A stretch of 22,295 nt of DNA, taken from positions 1-22,295 of the IMG/VR virus record IMGVR_UViG_3300011115_000477. One strand, 5' to 3'. The notes beneath the pieces were generated by a model. It searched no databases and had not been told where the DNA came from. It worked only from the letters and a program-made list of their open reading frames with translations. The position numbers and the translations under genes are program-made. The stretch is from a virus. Positions 1,257 to 19,285 of this stretch are shown piece by piece (the first letter of the stretch is position 1; each line of letters starts with the position of its first letter).

Positions 1257-1408
1257 TTTGATTCCTTCTTCTTCCGGTTCCTAGTCCAGTAACTGATTTC
1301 ATAGGCCATCACTCGCTTGGCTGCTTTGTACGCTTCACCGGCATCCTTGCGGCTCATCACCATCACGCCGGTTCCTGCGTTTGAGATCTTCTTCACGTTC
1401 TCGCTCAT
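1253..1408 (-). CDS. Very small basic protein (51 aa)
   Basis: A 51-codon gene translated by hand. It begins MSENVKKISNAG and ends in a strongly basic tail, WTRNRKKKESK. It fills exactly the space between its neighbours: its ATG (1408-1406) lies in an ATGA overlap with the TGA of the resolvase gene, and its own TGA (1255-1253) lies in an ATGA overlap with the ATG of the next gene. Two matching overlaps are strong evidence for a real gene despite its size. The basic C-terminus would suit nucleic-acid binding, but that is only inference. The central AYKAAKRVMAYEISYW is probably a helix. No family is recognised. Confidence 0.7.
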   Translation of the reverse strand: MSENVKKISNAGTGVMVMSRKDAGEAYKAAKRVMAYEISYWTRNRKKKESK

Positions 1409-1863
1409 CGCCCACCTCCCAGTGCGTAGTGAAGCACCAGCAGGGCATCACAGTTCTTCAGGCTGACATCGAGATGCGGGTACAGCTCCTGAGCCTTGGC
1501 CTTGAGCTTGCGCTTCCATTCGGGTCCGGTGGCGCATGCTTTGCGACCTCCGAGTCCGAGAGGTTCCTGCCACACCTTGGGTTCGACTCGGTGCAGTGCG
1601 TAGCCCTGTGAGTAGGCCAGTCCTTGGATGATGCCGTAGTTCTCGTGGAGCGTGGCAACCGCTGCTGCCGGGGTCAGCTTGCTCACGAACTTCGGGACCT
1701 TCTCGATCCACAGGTGGGAGTCGGCCACCTTGAATCCGCTTAGTAGTTGCGCCATGTCCGGCAGTGATTCCGGCATTGGGAACAGGAGGATGCCGTTCAC
1801 GGTATGGACCGCGAATCCTCCGTTCACGCCTGGATCACAGGCTACGATTGTTTTGTTGCTCAT
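1405..1863 (-). CDS. RuvC-like Holliday junction resolvase
   Basis: A 152-residue protein with an RNase H-like nuclease fold of the RuvC/phage resolvase group. It has DPGVNGG near the N-terminus (candidate catalytic Asp10), LWIEKVP with Glu54, and a C-terminal KNCDALLVLHYA block with Asp139. Their order and spacing match the acidic metal-binding residues of RuvC. Such enzymes cut four-way junctions with two metal ions. The length is close to the usual 150-180 residues. The protein follows RecT, RecE and helicase genes, which fits a final resolving step in recombination or replication. The start overlaps the upstream membrane-protein gene by 29 bases. Its stop overlaps the 51-residue gene as ATGA. 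A debranching role before packaging is an alternative. Confidence 0.82.
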   Translation of the reverse strand: MSNKTIVACDPGVNGGFAVHTVNGILLFPMPESLPDMAQLLSGFKVADSHLWIEKVPKFVSKLTPAAAVATLHENYGIIQGLAYSQGYALHRVEPKVWQEPLGLGGRKACATGPEWKRKLKAKAQELYPHLDVSLKNCDALLVLHYALGGGR

Positions 1864-1975
1864 TGGTTTTGGTGTTCTGTGATTTGATGGTGAGAGAGTG
1901 GCCTACATAGATCCCTGCGATTACGCACAGGGGCATCAGCACAGCCATGCACACGATGGTGATGACTGTGTTCAT
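1835..1975 (-). CDS. Single-pass membrane mini-protein (46 aa)
   Basis: A 46-codon gene starting at ATG 1975-1973, in an ATGA overlap with the helicase stop. Residues about 4-25 (VITIVCMAVLMPLCVIAGIY) form one strongly hydrophobic segment. A polar, Asn/Gln/Lys-rich tail of about 20 residues follows. By the positive-inside rule the Lys-containing C-terminus may face the cytoplasm, but charge is sparse. A longer in-frame reading from 2092 is rejected because it runs through the helicase gene. The membrane segment amid DNA-metabolism genes is unusual. It could anchor a replication complex, or be a small superinfection or host-modulating protein. No family is recognised. Confidence 0.65.
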   Translation of the reverse strand: MNTVITIVCMAVLMPLCVIAGIYVGHSLTIKSQNTKTNEQQNNRSL

Positions 1976-3096
1976 TGGATCGAGCATCCGAGTTCCTTGT
2001 AACATTTGATCCGCTTCTTCGCGTGGGCTTCCGCCAGTGGGTGGAAGGTATCCTTGAAGTCGCAGATGAAAGCGGTGTCTTTGCCTTCGCAACGCCGCAG
2101 CGCACGGCTGGCTCGCTGGATGGTTTTCTGTGCGCTCCTACCACCAGAGACCATGACCAGCGTGTGGACGTTTGGCAGATCCAATCCCTCATCGGCCAGA
2201 GAGGTGGCGATCATCACGCTGATGTTCCCCGCTCGGAACTCCTCCATCACCTCACGCCGCGCCTTCTTTGGCATCTTGGAGTGGACGAGTACCGCGCCAT
2301 TGATACTCAGCGCATAATGCTCTCCAAGGGTCACGCGAGGAACCAGAACGAGTGTCGGGTACTTCGGTCCACTGGACGCTGCCATTATCATGGCGGCATC
2401 GTTGCGAGTTCTGTTCTGGCAGATGCCAATGTCGGTCACTGCTTCCCAAGCGCACATGGCTCGGAGTTCCTGGTGTCGGATACGCATGTAGCGTTTGCGA
2501 TCAGCGAAGAGTCTCTCTATCTGATCATCGATCCTCTGCTGGAGTCCGACATCGGTGGCGGTGCTGATGAAGACGTTCGCGTGGGCCAGAACATTGGCTA
2601 GTTCCTCGCGCTTGATCTCGTACTGGTTGTTGCGAAAGAGGCTGCGAAGGATGGCGTTGCGCTCTGGATCGTCGCACCAAGGGGTCGCATCGAATCCGAA
2701 GATCGATCCGGGGCATGACTCAATGATCCTGCTCCATGTAACCGCTGGCGCATGCTTCGCCTCATCCACGATCAGGACGGCCTTCTTGCTGAAGTCCACC
2801 GACTCATGCGGGCATCGGACTTCGACGCGAGAGATATCCACTCCAGCAGCGATGAGTGCTTTTGTTGCTTGCTGGCAGGTCTCGCGGGTGGGAGCGAGCC
2901 ATCCAAAGCTAACAGTTGGAAATTTGGCGGCAGCTTGTTTGATGATGGCGGAAGCGATCAGTGTCTTCCCGCATCCTGCTGGTGCGATGATGAGTCCGCT
3001 ATGCGATAGCATGGCCCACTCGACTGCTCGTTGCTGATACGGGCGGAGTAGAAAAGCTTGCTTCGTTGGCGTTTCGATATGATCTTGGATCTGCAT
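1972..3096 (-). CDS. SF2 DEAD/DEAH-type helicase
   Basis: A 374-residue ATP-dependent nucleic-acid translocase with a full set of superfamily 2 motifs. It has a Q-like LRPYQQRAVEWA (17-28), Walker A APAGCGKT (38-45), LAPTRE (68-72 region), Walker B VDEAKH with DEAK in place of DEAH (111-114), motif III-like FDATP (135-139), LVLVPR (motif IV, about 249-254), ATSLADEGLDLPNV (motif V, 297-310) and QRASRALRR (motif VI, 327-335). The length is compact, two RecA domains with little else, like phage RAD3/UvsW-type helicases. It sits between the ssDNA-binding candidate and the resolvase, so branch migration or fork remodelling is a plausible job. No Shine-Dalgarno is obvious. The leader is A/C-rich and preceded by a strong hairpin. 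Confidence 0.88.
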   Translation of the reverse strand: MQIQDHIETPTKQAFLLRPYQQRAVEWAMLSHSGLIIAPAGCGKTLIASAIIKQAAAKFPTVSFGWLAPTRETCQQATKALIAAGVDISRVEVRCPHESVDFSKKAVLIVDEAKHAPAVTWSRIIESCPGSIFGFDATPWCDDPERNAILRSLFRNNQYEIKREELANVLAHANVFISTATDVGLQQRIDDQIERLFADRKRYMRIRHQELRAMCAWEAVTDIGICQNRTRNDAAMIMAASSGPKYPTLVLVPRVTLGEHYALSINGAVLVHSKMPKKARREVMEEFRAGNISVMIATSLADEGLDLPNVHTLVMVSGGRSAQKTIQRASRALRRCEGKDTAFICDFKDTFHPLAEAHAKKRIKCYKELGCSIQ

Positions 3097-3139
3097 AGCG
3101 TGTCGTTGCGACTATGTTTGTTGGTTTTGGACTCATTCA

Positions 3140-3167
3140 CCCCCCGGAGGCTGCACACTCCGGGGGG
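3140..3167. terminator. Perfect GC-rich hairpin in the only sizeable intergenic gap
   Basis: CCCCCCGGAG (3140-3149) and CTCCGGGGGG (3158-3167) are perfect inverted copies separated by an 8-base loop. On the plus strand the hairpin is followed by CTTTGTTTT, as in an intrinsic terminator. All genes here run on the minus strand, where the hairpin is preceded by the complementary A-rich run and followed by GTGAATGAG with no U-tract. It begins about 15 bases after the stop of the DUF669-like gene and ends about 43 bases before the helicase start. It may therefore stop antisense transcription, act as an attenuator or RNA-processing or stability element, or terminate without a U-tract. Confidence 0.6.
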
Positions 3168-3181
3168 CTTTGTTTTAGTGG

Positions 3182-3601
3182 TTAGATGGTATCGTTATCA
3201 GACGGCACCTTCTTCATGCGGCGAACGCGGAGCGTAGTCTGCTCGGCACCGTTCTTGTCGGTGTACTTCTCTTCTTCGAGGACCACCACGAGGGAGAGTC
3301 CAACGAATCCTTGGAGGAACCGGAAGAAGGCACCGTTGACGCTAAAATCGAACTCGGCCCCATCATCGATGTTGGCTTCGGTCGCGGAGATGAGGGCCTG
3401 GACGCGCCACATCATCGTCTCCTTGAGGATGAACCGGTCGCTGATGACCTCGCCGCCCGGACCCTTGTATCGGAGGGTGGCAACGCTGTTCCCGTTCTTG
3501 TCGAGGCCGTCATCCTTGCAGGATTGGACCACCACGGTGTACTCGCCGGGGGCGGCGAACGGCTTCACTTCGGCTGCTGAGCGATCAACTTTGAATGTCA
3601 T
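3182..3601 (-). CDS. DUF669-like, possible ssDNA-binding protein
   Basis: A 139-residue, beta-rich protein. The N-terminus MTFKVDRSAAEVKPFAAPGE leads into YTVVVQSCKDDGLDKNGN, then a variable core and a C-terminal LRVRRMKKVPSDNDTI. The pattern 'PGEY.v.v......KnG...' followed by DRF.LKE and a late basic strand resembles phage DUF669-type proteins, which lie beside RecT or annealase and exonuclease genes and are thought to bind ssDNA. The position between the RecE-like nuclease and the helicase supports this. The assignment rests on weak sequence likeness plus context. An OB-fold recombination accessory protein is the main alternative. The leader has no Shine-Dalgarno and is a CAACAACAACGACACA-like A/C-rich stretch. 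Confidence 0.55.
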   Translation of the reverse strand: MTFKVDRSAAEVKPFAAPGEYTVVVQSCKDDGLDKNGNSVATLRYKGPGGEVISDRFILKETMMWRVQALISATEANIDDGAEFDFSVNGAFFRFLQGFVGLSLVVVLEEEKYTDKNGAEQTTLRVRRMKKVPSDNDTI

Positions 3602-3628
3602 GTTAGTAGGTATGTGTCGTTGTTGTTG

Positions 3629-4405
3629 TTATTCGGACTGACGCGCCGCCCACACGGGCAGCGAAAGGGATTGGATCTGGGAGGAGTAACAAGGCCAAGA
3701 GTTAAGCTGTTGGCATTCGACGAAGGTACGGAGCTGCTCATCGATGATGGACTGGCCGACATCGATGGCCTGCGGATCGAGTTCGTAGCAAGCGACACCG
3801 TAGGGTGCCTCCTTCTCGACTGCGATGAACACGAACCGGTTGATGCCGGTGATGCGCTGATACCAAGCGGCTTGGACATGGTATCGGAACTGAGCGACCG
3901 ACTTGGCGAACGCATTCGGAGATGCGTCCTGGGTGGTCTTGAGATCGATGATGTAGTCTTTGCCCATGCCATCGATACGAGCTTTGACATCCACGCCTAG
4001 CCAGTTGTCGAAGCACGAGACCTCGGCCTTGATTCCATTGAGTAGGCCAGCGGCTGCTGGGTGAGCGTGAACCGCAGCGGCGACTCCGGTGATGTTGTCC
4101 CACTGATCCTGAGCCAGAGGGGTCTTTCCTGAGTCTAGGATGGCCTGCCACGCGGCTTTGCCTTCCTTGGTGCGTCGATCTCCATTGAAGACCGTGTACT
4201 TCGCAATGAAGAGTTCTGGCTCAAGCACAGCGCAATGGGCGGCTGTTCCGAATTCGAGGGCTGGGCTGGACTCAAGCCTAGTCTGTCCATCCTGCCATGC
4301 GCGGAAGTGCGCGGGCGATTTGCGGAACTGATCGAGACCGCTCTTCGAGAGTGCCTTGGTGGAGTGGTAAATCTCCGCCGCCATGTTGTGGATGGTATCA
4401 GCCAT
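3629..4405 (-). CDS. RecE/exonuclease VIII-like PD-(D/E)XK nuclease
   Basis: A 258-residue nuclease that would digest one strand from dsDNA ends to make 3' overhangs for annealing. The fold signature is complete: STKALSKSGLDQFRKSPAHF at 15-34, FGTAAH (52-57) with His57, KAEVS with Glu128, ARIDG with Asp145, IDLKTT with Asp154 and Lys156, and the downstream YHVQAAWY (176-182) Q/Y helix seen in RecB-type nucleases. This matches the PDDEXK-type exonuclease domain (DUF3799-like) of RecE proteins. A GGAGG six bases before ATG 4405 supports this start over a second ATG at 4384. The gene overlaps the RecT gene by eight bases, so the pair is co-translated as in RecET systems. Confidence 0.85.
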   Translation of the reverse strand: MADTIHNMAAEIYHSTKALSKSGLDQFRKSPAHFRAWQDGQTRLESSPALEFGTAAHCAVLEPELFIAKYTVFNGDRRTKEGKAAWQAILDSGKTPLAQDQWDNITGVAAAVHAHPAAAGLLNGIKAEVSCFDNWLGVDVKARIDGMGKDYIIDLKTTQDASPNAFAKSVAQFRYHVQAAWYQRITGINRFVFIAVEKEAPYGVACYELDPQAIDVGQSIIDEQLRTFVECQQLNSWPCYSSQIQSLSLPVWAARQSE

Positions 4406-5180
4406 TGGACACCTCCGTGGCGACGATCTCGGGGCTGACGATGACCGGCAGCTTGGAGAGGATCAGGTCGGGCTTGGCGATGTACTTGCTGGCGAATCCA
4501 TCGGGGAGATCGCGGAAGGTCTGACCTTCTTGGATGCGACCGGCCTTGATGAGCAGGGCGTTCACATCCTCCTCACGATCCTCGAACAGGGCTTCGAGCT
4601 TGGCGGTGATATCGAAGCTCTTGGTGGGAGCGGCGACCTCGGTGATCGCGGGCTGGAAGTCCTCGGTCTCTTCCGGTGTGTAGATCCCGGCAACCACTTC
4701 AGGAGCGAGCATGCGAACCGCTTTGCTGATGCAACGAGCGCGGAGCATGGCACTCGGATCTTTGGCCCACCCAGAACCCGGCTTGGCGGGGAGTAGGCCA
4801 GCAAGCTTCGCATCTTCGGTGGTGAAGGAGATCTCGCAGGAGTTGCCGTCATAGGTCCAGAGGGCGATGGCCGCTCTGGCATCGAACTGCTTCCAGAGAA
4901 CCTTGCCACCACGGGCGCGGTAACCGGCGAGCATGGCATCGGAGCGCATGGAGAGAGAACCATTGATGATGTGGTACTCGCGCTTGAAATCGAACGGGGT
5001 CTTCTTCTCGGCGGCGCACTGCCAAGCGATGAGTTTCCCTTGTTCGACCTTGGTGCAACCAAGCATTCCGCTGGCTGCGATCCACTCGCCCATCTTCTCG
5101 ATGGCGGTGATGGGGTCACCGATCTTGGCGTACATTTCGCCTGAGTCGGTCTGTTGCGTTGTCGTTGCTATTGCGTTCAT
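4398..5180 (-). CDS. RecT family single-strand annealing protein
   Basis: A 260-residue recombinase that would coat ssDNA and promote annealing and strand invasion with the neighbouring nuclease. Family features are the QGKLIAWQCAAEKKTPFDF segment (47-65), NGSLSMRSDAMLAGYRARGG (73-92), and the C-terminal core WAKDPSAMLRARCISKAVR (138-156) followed by LAPEVVAGIYTPEE, which is typical of RecT. The start is ATG 5180. A longer frame reaches 5354 but crosses the HTH gene, and 5180 forms an ATGA overlap with that gene's stop. The last 70 residues after the core are less conserved and acidic, as often in RecT. No Shine-Dalgarno is seen. Confidence 0.88.
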   Translation of the reverse strand: MNAIATTTQQTDSGEMYAKIGDPITAIEKMGEWIAASGMLGCTKVEQGKLIAWQCAAEKKTPFDFKREYHIINGSLSMRSDAMLAGYRARGGKVLWKQFDARAAIALWTYDGNSCEISFTTEDAKLAGLLPAKPGSGWAKDPSAMLRARCISKAVRMLAPEVVAGIYTPEETEDFQPAITEVAAPTKSFDITAKLEALFEDREEDVNALLIKAGRIQEGQTFRDLPDGFASKYIAKPDLILSKLPVIVSPEIVATEVSNG

Positions 5181-5350
5181 TGTGGGTTTTGTCGGAGGAG
5201 TTCCTCGATTACATCGGAGCGGACACGGATCGTGCGCTTCGTCGCCTTCATGGCTGGAAGCTTTCCTGACCGAATCCACCGCCGCACCGTCTCGGGATGA
5301 GTCCCGAGTGCCGAAGCGATCTCTTGGACGGTTAGAAGTTTTACGCTCAC
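5177..5350 (-). CDS. Excisionase-type helix-turn-helix DNA-binding protein
   Basis: A 57-residue MerR/excisionase-type HTH protein. LTVQEIASALGTHPETVRRW is a winged HTH of the kind placed in HTH_17, followed by IRSGKLPAMKATKRTIRVRS (the wing) and a final helix, DVIEELLRQ. The GTG at 5350 is preferred because family members usually start a few residues before the LTVQEIA helix. TTG codons at 5359 and 5377 in the same frame would give 60 or 66 residues. The stop overlaps the RecT start as ATGA. As the first gene of the recombination module it may regulate this operon or a nearby integration or excision step. No integrase is in the window, so the regulator role is favoured. Confidence 0.78.
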   Translation of the reverse strand: MSVKLLTVQEIASALGTHPETVRRWIRSGKLPAMKATKRTIRVRSDVIEELLRQNPQ

Positions 5351-5403
5351 GCAAGCCAATGTAGCAGCGTGTTGCAAACTGTCGAGAGAAATCTTTTGGA
5401 GAT

Positions 5404-14783: not shown

Positions 14784-15545
14784 TTACAGGATGTCTTGGA
14801 ACGTGTAATCGTACAAGCTATCTGGGATGATGCGGCTAATCTGCTGTTGTTGGCCGCGTTCCATGTCCTTCATAATGGTGACTTGAGCGGCTCCCTCTTG
14901 GAACTTGGCTTGGGCTTTACCGTACTGACGGCTGTATTCGAGGAGATCGCCTTCGGTGTAGGCCATTAGAGCGTTCTCTACGCCTCGTAGCTCAAAGTTG
15001 GTATCGTTGGAGATGGTTGTGGCCTCACCGAACTGCCGCATCTGGGACTGTTTCTTGGCGAGGATGAACAGGGTGCCATCGGCATTGGGCGTGGGAACGA
15101 GTTTGATGCGGGGAACACCGGCCTCGCCATAAGCTCCTCCAATGAGCCGGGTCCAGTTAACAAAGTTGCCGGGGGTGGCTTTGCGGCTATCGACGTTGTT
15201 CCAGGTGTTGGGATCGAGCTGGAAGAACGAGACCCATTCCGCGGCGGGGACTTCGATACCATCGGTATCTCCGGTGACGGTGAAACGAATGGCGACGGGG
15301 AAGTCGATGAATGTATTGTACCCGGTACCTGAAGCGTAAGCTGAAGTGACGTAATCGGAAAGGGTGACAATCTCAGTGCCGGCGGTGACCGGATGAGAGA
15401 TAATGCCGAGGGTATCGTTCCACAGGCAGGAATCCCAGATCATCGAATAGCGGCGGATACAGAACTTCTTGGCCAACGCGATGGTGGCCGAGTCTGTGAA
15501 CGACAGCTTATCGCAAGCCGCCTGAGCCGCTTCGGAGGGTTTCAT
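14784..15545 (-). CDS. Putative head-tail adaptor / tail tubular A-like protein (253 aa)
   Basis: A 253-residue protein beginning MKPSEAAQAACDKLSFTDSA, followed by a helical stretch LAKKFCIRRYSMIWDSCLWND. A beta-rich middle with DFPVAIRFTVTG comes next, then a long C-terminal helix ALMAYTEGDLLEYSRQYGKA that runs into QGAAQ-type residues. This layout (N-terminal helices, beta domain, long helix) and the location just before the tail-hub gene fit a head-tail connector or tail tubular A protein of podoviruses. No exact family can be named. AGGAG lies a short distance upstream of ATG 15545, which overlaps the fibre stop by one base (TAATG), so translation is probably both coupled and independent. 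Confidence 0.58.
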   Translation of the reverse strand: MKPSEAAQAACDKLSFTDSATIALAKKFCIRRYSMIWDSCLWNDTLGIISHPVTAGTEIVTLSDYVTSAYASGTGYNTFIDFPVAIRFTVTGDTDGIEVPAAEWVSFFQLDPNTWNNVDSRKATPGNFVNWTRLIGGAYGEAGVPRIKLVPTPNADGTLFILAKKQSQMRQFGEATTISNDTNFELRGVENALMAYTEGDLLEYSRQYGKAQAKFQEGAAQVTIMKDMERGQQQQISRIIPDSLYDYTFQDIL

Positions 15546-16765
15546 TATAAATACTCCTGAAGTGTCATTGAGGAAGACGTTGAAACTAACAAATCGTTTA
15601 CCGCATAATTAAGATACAGATTCTGCTGACTTGTTGGGCCGTAATTAAACAACTTGTATGTTGTAGCAGAAGTTGTATTTGGAGAATCTAAAAACTGAAT
15701 CGTTTTATTACTAATTGTCGGAAGATCATCGTCTTCGTATGATCCGCTTGATATGCCTTTTGTGTTAGCTCCAGTGGATGTTCCTAGTTCGGTTGATCCC
15801 CTTGTTAACCTGAAAAGAATGAATTGAGATCCGTTTGTAATTGCTGAATAGTTTATTACAACAGTTACAAGTATTCTTGAAGAAGCACTTGTTGGAGTTA
15901 TTGATGTGGTAAGTACCGTTATTTCCTGACCAGGAGCAGTCGCTGATCCTCCGTATACTTGCCTTGTGGTATCAACAGTTTGAACGCATTTAGCTATTTG
16001 TCCAAACGAACTCGCAGTAACAACCTTAACCTTGCTGGAATCGCTCGCATCAGTGATCAGCACCTTGTCGGCTGCAAGATCAACCGTGACTGTTGAAATA
16101 TTTGGAGTCGTGATGTTGTCCGAGTTCAGCGTCAGCGTGTCAGTGCCAGCATTTCCAAGTGTGGTGTTTCCATTGGCTGCAAGATCACCGGTCAGCGTGG
16201 TATTGCCAGTGACTCCAAGAGTCGTTCCAACCGTAGCAGCACCCGTGACTCCAACGCTGGCCAACGTAGTGGCTCCGGTTACGCCAAGAGTCGTTCCAAC
16301 CGTAGCGGCTCCGGTCACGCCAACGCTTGCCAAGGTGCTTGCTCCCGTGACCCCGAGGGTACCGGTAACAGCGGTATTGCCGGTTAGAGTGGAGGTTCCA
16401 GTGACTGCAAGGTTACCTGGGACCGTGAGGTTGCCAGTGAGCGTAGTTGCTCCGGTGACATTGAGCGCACCGCCTATGGTCGCTGCACCGCTCGTAGCGA
16501 GGCTTGAGAGGCTGGTAGCCCCGGTCACACCAAGAGTGCCCGCAACAGCCGTGTTGCCGCTTGCAGAGGCCACTGTGAGCTTGTTAGTGGCTACGCTAAA
16601 ATCTCCTGTCGCATTGACTGCGGCGTTGGAGATCTGGAGTGCGGAATCATTACCGCTGCCGTCGCTGATGGTTTTGAGCGTTGCGCTTACTGTGGAGTTG
16701 TCGGAGTTCTTGAGTAGGCCAGTGTAAGTCGATGCGACGCTACTTCCTGTAAGTGGTGTTCCCAT
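15545..16765 (-). CDS. Tail fibre 2 with 23-residue repeats and a variable tip
   Basis: A 406-residue Ala/Thr/Gly-rich fibre. Residues about 70-210 are repeated beta units of the 'LGVTGATTL' type, with two near-perfect 23-residue copies ([20 protein letters not shown] plus ASV) at about 149-194. These fit a triple-beta or collagen-like trimeric shaft. From about 257 onward the composition changes: SRILVTVVINYSA and FILFRLTRGSTELG resemble the jelly-roll-like tip of receptor-binding fibres. GC drops from 67% (16501-16560) in the shaft to 32% (15541-15600) in the tip gene segment by hand count. The tip probably contacts the host surface. No chaperone domain is present. Confidence 0.75.
   Translation of the reverse strand: MGTPLTGSSVASTYTGLLKNSDNSTVSATLKTISDGSGNDSALQISNAAVNATGDFSVATNKLTVASASGNTAVAGTLGVTGATSLSSLATSGAATIGGALNVTGATTLTGNLTVPGNLAVTGTSTLTGNTAVTGTLGVTGASTLASVGVTGAATVGTTLGVTGATTLASVGVTGAATVGTTLGVTGNTTLTGDLAANGNTTLGNAGTDTLTLNSDNITTPNISTVTVDLAADKVLITDASDSSKVKVVTASSFGQIAKCVQTVDTTRQVYGGSATAPGQEITVLTTSITPTSASSRILVTVVINYSAITNGSQFILFRLTRGSTELGTSTGANTKGISSGSYEDDDLPTISNKTIQFLDSPNTTSATTYKLFNYGPTSQQNLYLNYAVNDLLVSTSSSMTLQEYL
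16215..16352. repeat. Tandem 69-bp repeat in the fibre shaft gene
   Basis: Two adjacent copies (16215-16283 and 16284-16352) with a perfect 23-base start in each, then diverged to roughly three quarters identity. One repeat equals 23 codons and keeps the reading frame, so it adds or removes whole shaft units. The first shared block begins CCAAGAGTCGTTCCAACCGT. Further, weaker copies of the nine-residue LGVTGATTL-like unit extend toward 16560. The same residues ([13 protein letters not shown]) also occur once in fibre 1 at 18552-18590. Confidence 0.8.
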
Positions 16766-16766
16766 A

Positions 16767-16997
16767 TCAGTTCTTCGGTAAAACGTACCAACCAGCCGGC
16801 AGAGTGACGGTGGACGGCCCCACCAGCTTCTTATCTTTGTCGAATCCGTAGACGCTGGCCTTGGTAGGCTTGGCCAGCATCACCGGATCACCGCTTGGCA
16901 CTAGGACCACTCGCGTCATCTGACAGCCCAGGCAGATCGGCAACACGGCCAGCCAGATCATTCTTGAGATCATCAGGTGCTTTACCATGTTGCACAT
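16767..16997 (-). CDS. Small probable lipoprotein, o-spanin/Rz1-like candidate
   Basis: A 76-residue protein. It has a short basic/hydrophobic leader (about residues 5-24, HLMISRMIWLAVLPICLG) ending at Cys25 in a CLGC context, a weak lipobox. The mature part has RVVLVPSGDPVMLAKPTKA and ends GPSTVTLPAGWYVLPKN. The latter pattern (val-rich strand, PSGDP, then LPxGWY near the end) recurs, as I recall, in small lipoproteins of phage lysis regions. It overlaps the preceding 57-residue gene out of frame by about 110 bases, like nested Rz1 genes. ATG 16988 is an alternative start. An outer-membrane spanin role is inference. It could instead be an exclusion lipoprotein. Confidence 0.5.
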   Translation of the reverse strand: MCNMVKHLMISRMIWLAVLPICLGCQMTRVVLVPSGDPVMLAKPTKASVYGFDKDKKLVGPSTVTLPAGWYVLPKN

Positions 16998-17061
16998 CGG
17001 TGGGTGGTGTTTCGCGGAACCAATCGAGCAAGGCCTTAAGGATCTGGTAGACCCAGTTCAC
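16888..17061 (-). CDS. Small helical protein (57 aa), GTG start
   Basis: A 57-codon gene read by hand, beginning at GTG 17061-17059 in a GTGA overlap with the previous stop. The N-terminal NWVYQILKALLDWFRE is an amphipathic or marginally hydrophobic helix with three Trp. The rest is polar and ends in SGPSAKR. It overlaps the following lipoprotein gene for about 110 bases in a different frame. The arrangement resembles an Rz/Rz1 pair, but the helix is not a convincing full transmembrane segment and no coiled coil follows, so this is not a normal i-spanin. The chance that it is only an incidental open frame is moderate, but the coupling overlap argues for translation. Confidence 0.5.
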   Translation of the reverse strand: MNWVYQILKALLDWFRETPPTDVQHGKAPDDLKNDLAGRVADLPGLSDDASGPSAKR

Positions 17062-17249
17062 GGCTTAGTGACTTCGGCTTCCTTGGCATCCTTGGCCCAG
17101 ATCAAACCAATGCCAGCCGTGACGGCAGCAATTGTCGCAGCGATATCCAGATTGGTTGTCGGATCGCCATCAAAGACAGCCCGTAAGGCACCGCCAACAG
17201 CAATAAGGATAGCACCAACACCGGCGAGAGTTGTTTTCGTGTTTTTCAT
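17058..17249 (-). CDS. Two-helix membrane mini-protein (63 aa), holin candidate
   Basis: A 63-residue protein beginning MKNTKTTLAGVGAILIAVGG at ATG 17249. The ATG lies in an ATGA overlap with the preceding stop, and a longer reading to 17336 is rejected. Two hydrophobic segments, about 8-22 (LAGVGAILIAVGGAL) and 39-54 (IAATIAAVTAGIGLIW), are separated by a short polar loop, FDGDPTTN, and followed by a charged tail. Size and two-helix topology match class II-like holins or pinholins, which permeabilise the membrane at the end of infection. No endolysin gene is visible nearby, so the lysis role depends on context and is a hypothesis. Confidence 0.6.
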   Translation of the reverse strand: MKNTKTTLAGVGAILIAVGGALRAVFDGDPTTNLDIAATIAAVTAGIGLIWAKDAKEAEVTKP

Positions 17250-17425
17250 TTTGAGCGGAATAATCGATATGCGCCGTAAATAGCGCACAGTAAGCCAATC
17301 ACGGCGGTGATAAGTCGAACGATGTCGGTGAGCCATGGGATGAATGAAACAGCGGTGGCCGCTGCTGCTCCTCCCATGGAGACAATCATCTGATTTGTGT
17401 CACCGCCGTGATTGGATGTGTCCAT
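17246..17425 (-). CDS. Membrane mini-protein (59 aa)
   Basis: A 59-codon gene found by hand translation, beginning MDTSNHGGDTNQ. Its ATG directly follows the TAA of the previous gene and its TGA overlaps the next ATG. Residues about 13-29 (Met/Gly/Ala-rich, ending AVSFIPW) are mildly hydrophobic. Residues about 35-52 (IVRLITAVIGLLCAIYGA) are clearly a transmembrane helix, followed by a basic end, YRLFRSK. One or two membrane passes are possible. With the next gene it forms a pair of adjacent small membrane proteins, as in holin/antiholin arrangements. The pairing is suggestive only. Confidence 0.6.
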   Translation of the reverse strand: MDTSNHGGDTNQMIVSMGGAAAATAVSFIPWLTDIVRLITAVIGLLCAIYGAYRLFRSK

Positions 17426-17575
17426 TTACTCGGGCTTGTTTTGGGCTGCTGCAATGATGATGTCGGCCAAAGGAACGGCCACCTTCGCGTTCTGGATACC
17501 GCCGGCTTTCACGGCGATATCAATGAGCTGAAGGAGGCTGTTGGCTTGTTCTGTAGTGAGTTCGATCTTGATCAT
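17426..17575 (-). CDS. Small helical phage protein (49 aa)
   Basis: A 49-codon gene, MIKIELTTEQANSLLQLIDI followed by an AVKAGG turn and a second helix ending in AAAQNKPE. ATG 17575 lies in an ATGA overlap with the stop of the 123-residue gene, and its TAA abuts the next ATG. The two amphipathic helices joined at VKAGGIQNAKVAVP recall a recurring small phage protein ('LTTEQ..LL.QLIDIAVKAGG'), which I know only as uncharacterised and usually near lysis or tail genes. No membrane segment is present. The tight coupling on both sides makes it a confident gene in spite of its size. Confidence 0.68.
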   Translation of the reverse strand: MIKIELTTEQANSLLQLIDIAVKAGGIQNAKVAVPLADIIIAAAQNKPE

Positions 17576-17943
17576 GCGGCGGAAGCATCGGCCACAACCT
17601 CAGGCTCGGCAACAACAACCGGAGGAGGCACCGGCACCCACGGCAGCGGCAAAGCAACCACGGGCGGGTCGATCTGATTCTGGATCTGGAGCGAGACGTT
17701 GGCTTCGATGGCCGCTTGATCGACTCCGTTGGCGTAGCACCAGTCCAGCACCTGCTGCTCGGTGAGCTGGTCGTACGGAGTGAACGAGCCACTCGGCGGT
17801 TGGAATGAGCAGCTACCGTAGCAGGTGCCGCTGTAGGTTTCGTCAGTGCCGTTGCACCGCCAGTCGGCATTGATTACGACATCGGTGTAGGAGCCTTCAA
17901 CGGGCTTTACGAGGAGGCGTTCGATGAGCCAAGAGAGGGTCAT
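17572..17943 (-). CDS. Uncharacterised phage protein with YSGTCYGSC motif (123 aa)
   Basis: The N-terminal half has GSYTDVVINADWRCNGTDE, then YSGTCYGSCSFQPPSG with a CxxxC pair (plus the earlier Cys in WRCNG). Next come SFTPYDQLTEQQVLDWCYAN and a C-terminal Pro/Val-rich tail. I recall this architecture as a widespread small family in cyanophage and freshwater phage genomes, located near tail and lysis genes, with no function known. The cysteines could form a disulphide or bind metal, if exported or on the particle. The gene follows fibre 1 after 11 bases with an A/C-rich leader (CCAATACCAAT) and no Shine-Dalgarno. Confidence 0.62.
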   Translation of the reverse strand: MTLSWLIERLLVKPVEGSYTDVVINADWRCNGTDETYSGTCYGSCSFQPPSGSFTPYDQLTEQQVLDWCYANGVDQAAIEANVSLQIQNQIDPPVVALPLPWVPVPPPVVVAEPEVVADASAA

Positions 17944-17954
17944 ATTGGTATTGG

Positions 17955-18773
17955 TTAGGCTGCGGCTATGGTGGTGATAGTGCCAGACGATCCACGGAAC
18001 TTTAGTGCACCGGATTCAACGTAGAGTTGACCGCCGGTGACGTTTGCGGTCGGAGCGGTTCCGTTGGCAATCTGGATGGTTTTAGCAGCGGTGGTTCCGG
18101 CGGTGGTAAGACCCACCAACAAATTCCCACTCGCATCCAGCGTCATCTTGGCCGTCGCGAAGTCGGTGATAGTAGCGTTAACAGCTCCCGAAGCAGCAGT
18201 GAACCAACTATGTGTGCCGCTGATTAACTGATACAATAAAGCGGCACTGGCGTTTTTGTACTTCCAATCCGTTCCGTTAAAGAATCCGTTATTAACTATT
18301 GATAGTGTACCTGAAGATGACACAGCAGCAGCACTGCCTCCAGTGTTCAAATCAATAACGCTTGTGCCAGAACCCCACGCACTCGGCGTAACTCCGATGC
18401 CGAGGTTGCCGGAGGAGTTCACACGATAACGCTCAGTGCCACCTGTTGTGACAGCAAACGTGTCGGCAGCAGGATAGTAGATTCCGGTGTTAGTGTCTCC
18501 GGTCGTTGTAAGAGCAGGAAGCAGCGCAGTGCCAGCAGCAAACGTAGACACACCAGTCACACCCAGCGTCGTCCCCACCGTAGCCGCGCCGGTGATGCTG
18601 GCGGAGGCGAGAGTGGCGGTGCCGGATGCTCCGAGGATGTTGTTTACGCTGATCTTCTTCGTAGTGCCACTTGCCGCCATCGAGGTATCGCTGACATCAA
18701 CGATAGGGATAACGTCATTAGCCGGATCAGCGGCGGTCAACGCCGTCAGTGCTGTAATCTTTGTGTCTGCCAT
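17955..18773 (-). CDS. Tail/head fibre protein 1 (272 aa)
   Basis: A 272-residue Thr/Ala/Gly-rich fibre. The N-terminus [20 protein letters not shown] resembles the particle-binding end of many phage fibres. [14 protein letters not shown] at 61-74 matches the shaft repeat of fibre 2. Later parts include [34 protein letters not shown] and [15 protein letters not shown], all typical beta-repeat fibre units. The C-terminus ends with [18 protein letters not shown]. No peptidase S74 chaperone tail is seen. The gene begins after a TGATATGG junction, as does fibre 2. It may be a spike or short fibre that works with fibre 2. Confidence 0.7.
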
Positions 18774-18774
18774 A

Positions 18775-19014
18775 TCAGTAAACTGTTAGAATGAATTTGT
18801 CGGATGCTTCGGTTAAAATGAGATCTGTGCCTTGCTCAGTAGCCATTCGATCGTAGGTGCCAAAAGACAACACGATCTTTCCAGTGCCATCCTCTTGTAA
18901 GACGAAGAACTCGTCTTCCTGCAAAAGATCCCGGCGCATGATCGGCGGATCAACGGGCGTGACGTTTCCGCCAGACCCGCTTGAAGCCAATCGTGTTCCG
19001 AGAGCGAGAGTCAC
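18775..19014 (-). CDS. Hypothetical head-region protein (79 aa)
   Basis: A 79-residue protein, probably starting at ATG 19014. The N-terminus has Ser/Gly-rich linker [18 protein letters not shown]. The C-terminal half [18 protein letters not shown] and [15 protein letters not shown] looks like four short beta strands ('l.l.ed...ki.l...'), with an ILTE-type repeat. Small beta proteins of this kind between head and fibre genes are often fibre-attachment or decoration proteins, but no family can be named. Its stop is one base before the fibre 1 ATG, so the two genes are probably coupled. Confidence 0.5.
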
Positions 19015-19018
19015 AGGT

Positions 19019-19285
19019 TTAAGAGCTAATCACTCCGTTGAATGCGACTACCTGACCACTCGAAATCTCAAAGCTTGTAATCGGCCCAGGAAGCGTGATG
19101 CCAGCGGGGATAGCCACTGTGGACCAAGAGCCGCTGATACCATTTCCGGTGATCGAAGTGAAAGTGGTGACGGCAATCGTGGTGATCGCAACGAACGGGC
19201 CAGTGGTCAACCCGGTGGAGGCCACGAGCTGGAAGCCCCCATTGCCCATCGAATACTCGGTTGCTAGATTAGATTCTATGCTCAT
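19019..19285 (-). CDS. Hypothetical beta-rich protein (88 aa)
   Basis: An 88-residue protein, ATG 19285 in an ATGA overlap with the upstream gene's stop. The sequence is dominated by Thr, Ser, Gly, Ile and Val (for example VAITTIAVTTFTSITGNG and SWSTVAIPAGITLPG). This predicts a small beta-sandwich or beta-spike with few charged residues. It has no basic or coiled-coil part, so it is unlikely to bind nucleic acid. Position among capsid-proximal genes suggests a capsid decoration or fibre-attachment protein. The family is not recognised. Confidence 0.55.
   Translation of the reverse strand: MSIESNLATEYSMGNGGFQLVASTGLTTGPFVAITTIAVTTFTSITGNGISGSWSTVAIPAGITLPGPITSFEISSGQVVAFNGVISS

Follow-up and report, generated by a model that had tools for sequence, protein, structure and literature searches.

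Two-component spanins are encoded by embedded, overlapped, or adjacent gene pairs and consist of an i-spanin, a type II inner-membrane protein with an N-terminal transmembrane (TM) domain, and an o-spanin, an outer-membrane lipoprotein with a lipobox. The combined non-membrane length of known two-component spanins is 62-300 aa (Kongari et al., 2018; PMC6139136). Holins are recognized as small proteins with one to three TM segments encoded in a lysis cassette. In function, spanins fuse or disrupt the outer membrane during lysis, and holins permeabilize the membrane at a set time. A complete lysis cassette includes a muralytic enzyme, either in the cassette itself or elsewhere in the genome. Exclusion lipoproteins of the T5 Llp type bind and block the receptor after infection, and the gene for T5 Llp adjoins the receptor-binding gene. 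In cultured cyanophages, a DUF7936 gene is followed by genes for small, mostly TM proteins and then by a lysozyme-like gene.

Here we describe a block of small genes in a viral record of 22,295 bases (hereafter, the window), which is one whole IMG/VR contig and probably a fragment. The phage genes of the window lie on the minus strand. We consider it reasonably probable that four of the small genes, m59, m63, s57, and L76, supply the membrane components of a split lysis system.

Gene layout and conservation

The five small ORFs have the lengths, positions, and tight packing reported in an earlier note on this DNA (Table 1). The junction of h49 and m59 has zero gap, m59/m63 and m63/s57 each overlap by 4 nt, and 1 nt separates the end of L76 from the next fibre gene. 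The interval 16767-17943, which that note had assigned to five genes, does hold all of them but also contains a sixth, d123, such that its count was incomplete.

Table 1. Features of the small-gene block and of neighbouring regions in the window.
Feature	Coordinates	Strand	Description
Recombination block	1405-5354	minus	RuvC-like resolvase, helicase, ssb, exonuclease VIII, RecT
Downstream fibre gene	15545-16765	minus	406 aa; PHROG tail fibre matches
L76	16767-16997	minus	76 aa; lipoprotein precursor
s57	16888-17061	minus	57 aa; GTG start
s57/L76 overlap	16888-16997	minus	110 nt; different frames
L76 lipidated Cys codon (C25)	16923-16925	minus	read from sequence
m63	17058-17249	minus	63 aa; two-TM hairpin
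m59	17246-17425	minus	59 aa; membrane protein, two predicted hydrophobic segments
h49	17426-17575	minus	49 aa; helical
d123	17572-17943	minus	DUF7936 (E 1.9e-23) / phrog_7802; comes after fibre
Upstream fibre gene	17955-18773	minus	272 aa; PHROG tail fibre matches
g79 + g88	18775-19285		upstream of fibre

In scans of IMG/VR viral contigs, m63 had 447 relatives and the lipoprotein 159; the 80 loci nearest to m63 were kept for comparison of gene order. The genes m59, m63, and s57 are each present in 80/80 of these contigs and L76 in 79/80, the sole locus without it (L035) being cut by the contig end. The order m59-m63-s57-L76 is identical throughout, which answers, for four of the five genes, the question raised with the first description of whether the arrangement recurs in other phages. 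The reading frames are likewise conserved among relatives. As simple pairwise estimates from related sequences, made with no formal test, dN/dS values are 0.08 for m59, 0.05 for m63, and 0.15 for h49, and, outside the overlap, 0.10 for s57 and 0.07 for L76. Within the overlap the s57 frame gives 0.33 and the L76 frame 0.46, as compared with 1.9 and 2.9 for the flanking parts read in the wrong frame as a control. All five ORFs are genuine coupled genes under clear purifying selection, and both reading frames are constrained across the 110-nt overlap.

The unit m59-m63-s57-L76 is common to two unrelated phage backbones: lineage A, to which the window belongs, and lineage B (G005, G006, and G011-G013), whose structural genes differ from those of lineage A. 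Counted at the same locus, h49 and d123 occur together in 38 cases, both are missing in 24, d123 occurs without h49 in 3, and h49 alone in 0; the four-gene cassette is kept where d123 and h49 are absent. Because h49 is found only alongside d123, these two genes are best assigned to the fibre side, outside the lysis core, and the five-gene cassette originally proposed reduces to a core of four. The genes g79 and g88 also precede the fibre gene in lineage B, at lower identity, and the exchanged block may therefore start at g79/g88.

Among 50,697 deposited phage records there were no relatives of s57, m63, or L76, and BLAST of the same three proteins against cultured phages returned no real match. 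Family searches of the five small proteins (Pfam, PHROG) gave nothing significant.

Exchange of membrane genes around a fixed pair

TM segments were judged by hydropathy, as the best 19-residue window (KD19), instead of by TMHMM/SignalP. The two maxima are 1.95 and 1.54 for m59 and 2.04 and 1.79 for m63, which, as a small protein with two segments encoded in this cassette, fits a holin in size, TM segments, and gene location. Neither m63 nor m59 matches any holin family, and m63 did not reach the profile cut-off for Phage_holin_10 (PF23987) in Pfam.

Another 80 loci, termed type C, were reached through a divergent L76-like gene located near an end of contig G006; all of them have the order Phage_holin_10-type gene, s51, and lipoprotein L80. 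Their overlaps are mostly of 4 nt, and of 77-116 nt for s51/L80. In L090 the Phage_holin_10 profile matched at E 3.6e-20, and in L082 at 3.3e-17, both holins passing the cut-off; across about 80 loci, the position of m63 is thus occupied by the family of Pam3 gp28. The type C holin and m63 are unrelated (hhalign probability 1%). Similarly, the place of m59 is taken in relatives by tm64, to which m59 is unrelated (hhalign probability 1%), or by a protein with a coiled coil and a TM segment. A third scan revealed mixed cassettes, in which an m59-like gene is combined with Phage_holin_10 (L170, L186), an m63-like gene with another multi-TM protein (L247-L249), or the coiled coil+TM protein with Phage_holin_10 (L183-L185, L241, L082). 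Every mixed cassette ends in the s-L pair. As read from these gene orders, the membrane genes are swapped around a fixed overlapping s/L pair.

The presence of a curated holin family at the place of m63 in relatives is the main argument for a role in lysis, which it supports well. On this basis m63 is a holin candidate, and m59 a candidate holin partner or antiholin. The same evidence bears on a different reading, in which the whole block would be a fibre-accessory or membrane moron module, active in fibre maturation or host takeover and with no part in lysis. The block does move with the fibres and DUF7936 between backbones, and m59 weakly matches a moron PHROG annotated as "membrane protein" (E 0.009). 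However, recognized holins stand at the same place in the type C relatives, the cassette persists without d123 and h49, and DUF7936 genes of cultured phages lie ahead of small, mostly TM proteins and lysozymes; we regard a moron module as quite improbable.

Several observations concern the type C loci themselves. Contig G006 (43.9 kb) contains two cassettes, one of type C (L090, 83-1348) and one of type A (L056, about 4377-5170), each behind a fibre gene; this is explained either by a single phage with two fibre+lysis modules or by a chimeric assembly. In type C, a proline/glycine/tyrosine-rich protein of 47-63 aa (SGPYK...PQKP) is encoded immediately after the lipoprotein (L170, 2635-2799; L183, 10299-10460; L186, 5344-5535; L195, 10301-10444), and it is absent after L76 in the lineage of the window. 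L082 is filed under the MAG 'Candidatus Aquidulcis'; the contig is short and phage-like, carries ORFs resembling terminase and portal genes on the other strand, and is probably misbinned, so that this host assignment is not trusted.

The overlapping s57/L76 pair

L76 has a signal and a conserved lipobox (...CLGC-Q), in which the residue after Cys is Gln rather than Asp, consistent with sorting of the lipoprotein to the outer membrane. Across relatives the lipobox reads LGC-Q, SC-A, or TGC-T, and position +2 is never Asp in the sequences read. The mature part was modelled as a small beta domain (strands with pLDDT about 87), for which Foldseek returned no informative match, the sole match being a 73%-identical phage protein. 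At the sequence level L76 agrees with the definition of an o-spanin, and it looks like an o-spanin-like outer-membrane lipoprotein. L80 and L76 are homologues, with an hhalign probability of 98.9%. For s51 and s57 the probability is 74% (E 2.8e-5), and intermediates in L034, L082, and L247 give a continuous alignment between them; the two are probably homologous.

The s57/L76 genes overlap in the +1 frame, as known spanin gene pairs may do, and both frames are selected; the combined non-membrane length of about 90 aa is within the known range. The s57 protein itself has no TM segment and no export signal. Its predicted helices span residues 3-17, at the N-terminus and strongly amphipathic (moment 1.8), and residues 30-41, which are short; KD19 is about 0 and the octanol value +1.8 kcal/mol, as compared with a KD19 of 2.6 and an octanol value of -8.9 for the lambda Rz control. 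The earlier note had remarked that the 57-mer does not look like a normal i-spanin, and these values bear that out. Its broader proposal, of a possible lysis cassette with holin and spanin parts, most likely holds for the holin-like membrane proteins and for the o-spanin-like L76. Because s57 lacks the TM domain that defines an i-spanin, we do not file the pair as a spanin; at most, it may work like Rz/Rz1. A disruptin-like identity for s57 was also considered and rejected, since the net charge is -2 and the protein is not cationic.

An ordinary two-component spanin with a short i-spanin anchor, in which s57 or s51 would insert through its N-terminal helix, could account for the overlap architecture and the lengths, and the type C s51 N-terminal helices are indeed more hydrophobic (KD19 1.2-1.7), though borderline. 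The near-zero KD19, unfavourable octanol value, and strong amphipathicity of the s57 helix, set against the lambda Rz control, make such an anchor rather unlikely.

Alternatively, m59 and m63 could act in lysis while L76 is a receptor-shielding lipoprotein similar to T5 Llp, with s57 a small regulator and the overlap incidental. A short lipoprotein encoded beside fibre genes, an enzyme gene outside the cassette (see below), and the missing i-spanin anchor of s57 would all agree with this. Yet the L gene is tied to the s gene by a long conserved overlap and comes after holin genes in every backbone seen, while the fibres vary; an exclusion gene would be expected to follow the fibre and to diversify along with it, but the mature domain of L ranks with the most conserved parts (dN/dS 0.07). 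We therefore think a shielding role for L76 unlikely, and retain, as the preferred explanation for all four genes, a split lysis system to which they contribute the membrane part.

Search for a wall-cutting enzyme

At profile sensitivity no endolysin was found in the window, in agreement with the earlier note, which had supposed the enzyme to be elsewhere or unrecognized. Both descriptions apply, depending on lineage. A profile search placed a stand-alone SLT/lysozyme gene elsewhere in 15/17 records of other lineages, and in 0/8 lineage-A records, where the enzyme is unrecognized; in neither set are the records independent. The SLT/lysozyme gene has a PDB lysozyme match (E 2.4e-10). In lineage B the distance between this gene and the cassette is about 10 kb or more; in lineage C the gene sits among others on the opposite strand.

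Because contigs G001 and G003 of lineage A have their breaks at different points, the two jointly span the complete circular gene map, which measures about 36 kb, and no recognized enzyme was found in it. Unassigned lineage-A proteins gave no muralytic family against Pfam and PHROGs, a comparison that a very divergent enzyme could escape, and searches of the lineage aimed at Phage_lysozyme, SLT, and Amidase_2 likewise found nothing. The window and the eight same-lineage records accordingly contain no muralytic enzyme recognized in this way, and a standard lysis cassette elsewhere, envisaged at the outset as an alternative, was not found in the lineage. In a phage genome this small, with the wall enzyme unrecognized, a new endolysin family may emerge by elimination.

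Two candidates were rejected. A 652-aa protein has a PHROG "amidase" match (E 3.9e-12), but many tail and head-closure profiles also match it, partly over the same stretch, and it has no PDB match. The protein e203 has no family match and is also present in G006 and G013, which bear the SLT gene. Its core (L083, 250-861, and homologues; alignment A14) is nearly invariant in lineage A and in G006 of the unrelated lineage B. No homologue of the endolysin of Akkermansia phage Chantilly was identified in the fetched loci. Separately, one lineage-A protein (alignment A12) matches ART-PolyVal, the ADP-ribosyltransferase domain of polyvalent proteins (E 4.7e-6).

Proposed function and comparison with known systems

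We infer the following sequence of events. The candidate holin m63, assisted or regulated by m59, would build up in the inner membrane and open it at a set time, presumably by pore formation, releasing a wall-cutting enzyme encoded elsewhere. L76 would be exported, lipidated at Cys25, and wait at the outer membrane, while s57 would bind the membrane through its amphipathic helix and not span it. Once the wall has been cut, L76 and s57 might make contact and together disrupt the outer membrane, the task of Rz/Rz1. Counting against lysis are the lack of a recognized lineage-A enzyme, the lack of a holin family match for m63 and m59, a site between fibre genes that would also suit surface exclusion, and the lack of a TM segment or export signal in s57, which leaves its route to L76 hard to account for. 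The nearest relatives of the lineage-A terminase belong to Akkermansia phages (31-36% identity), a faint hint that the host may be verrucomicrobial, with an outer membrane.

More speculatively, s57/L76 could be an outer-membrane disruptor of a new class, with an amphipathic and possibly cytoplasmic inner partner that meets L76 only once the holin has opened the membrane, alongside a lineage-A wall enzyme from a family not yet described; we hold this to be a possibility, if a fairly improbable one.

Judged from gene content and order, the cassette is most likely a conserved modular lysis set of uncultured, mostly freshwater phages. Its plan is ordinary and its protein families are new; what is unusual is the TM-less Rz-like partner and the unrecognized enzyme of its own lineage. 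Environmental phages commonly carry this cassette, and four linked genes gain a testable role. It also offers a natural case in which membrane genes are swapped around a fixed overlapping pair.

Among known systems, the cyanophages KBS-S-2A, S-CBP3, and S-EIVl share with this locus a DUF7936 gene ahead of small, mostly membrane proteins, but no s57/L76 pair was seen in them and, unlike in the window, the enzyme is inside their module. Endolysins of the SLT/lysozyme type are encoded by stand-alone genes (about 105-130 aa) in cassette-bearing relatives, sited away from the cassette, whereas none was recognized in the lineage of the window. The Phage_holin_10 gene of relatives corresponds to m63 in place, size, and its two hydrophobic segments, though m63 is not a member of that family. 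No sequence relation of s57/L76 to any named spanin family was found, and the pair differs from the named two-component spanins in that s57 has no N-terminal TM domain or clear coiled coil, and L76 is beta-rich, not proline-rich. With lambda Rz/Rz1, P2 LysB/LysC, and T7 gp18.5/18.7, however, it shares a lipoprotein gene that starts inside its partner in the +1 frame, an SPII-type signal, holin-gene neighbours, and a total length within the known range.
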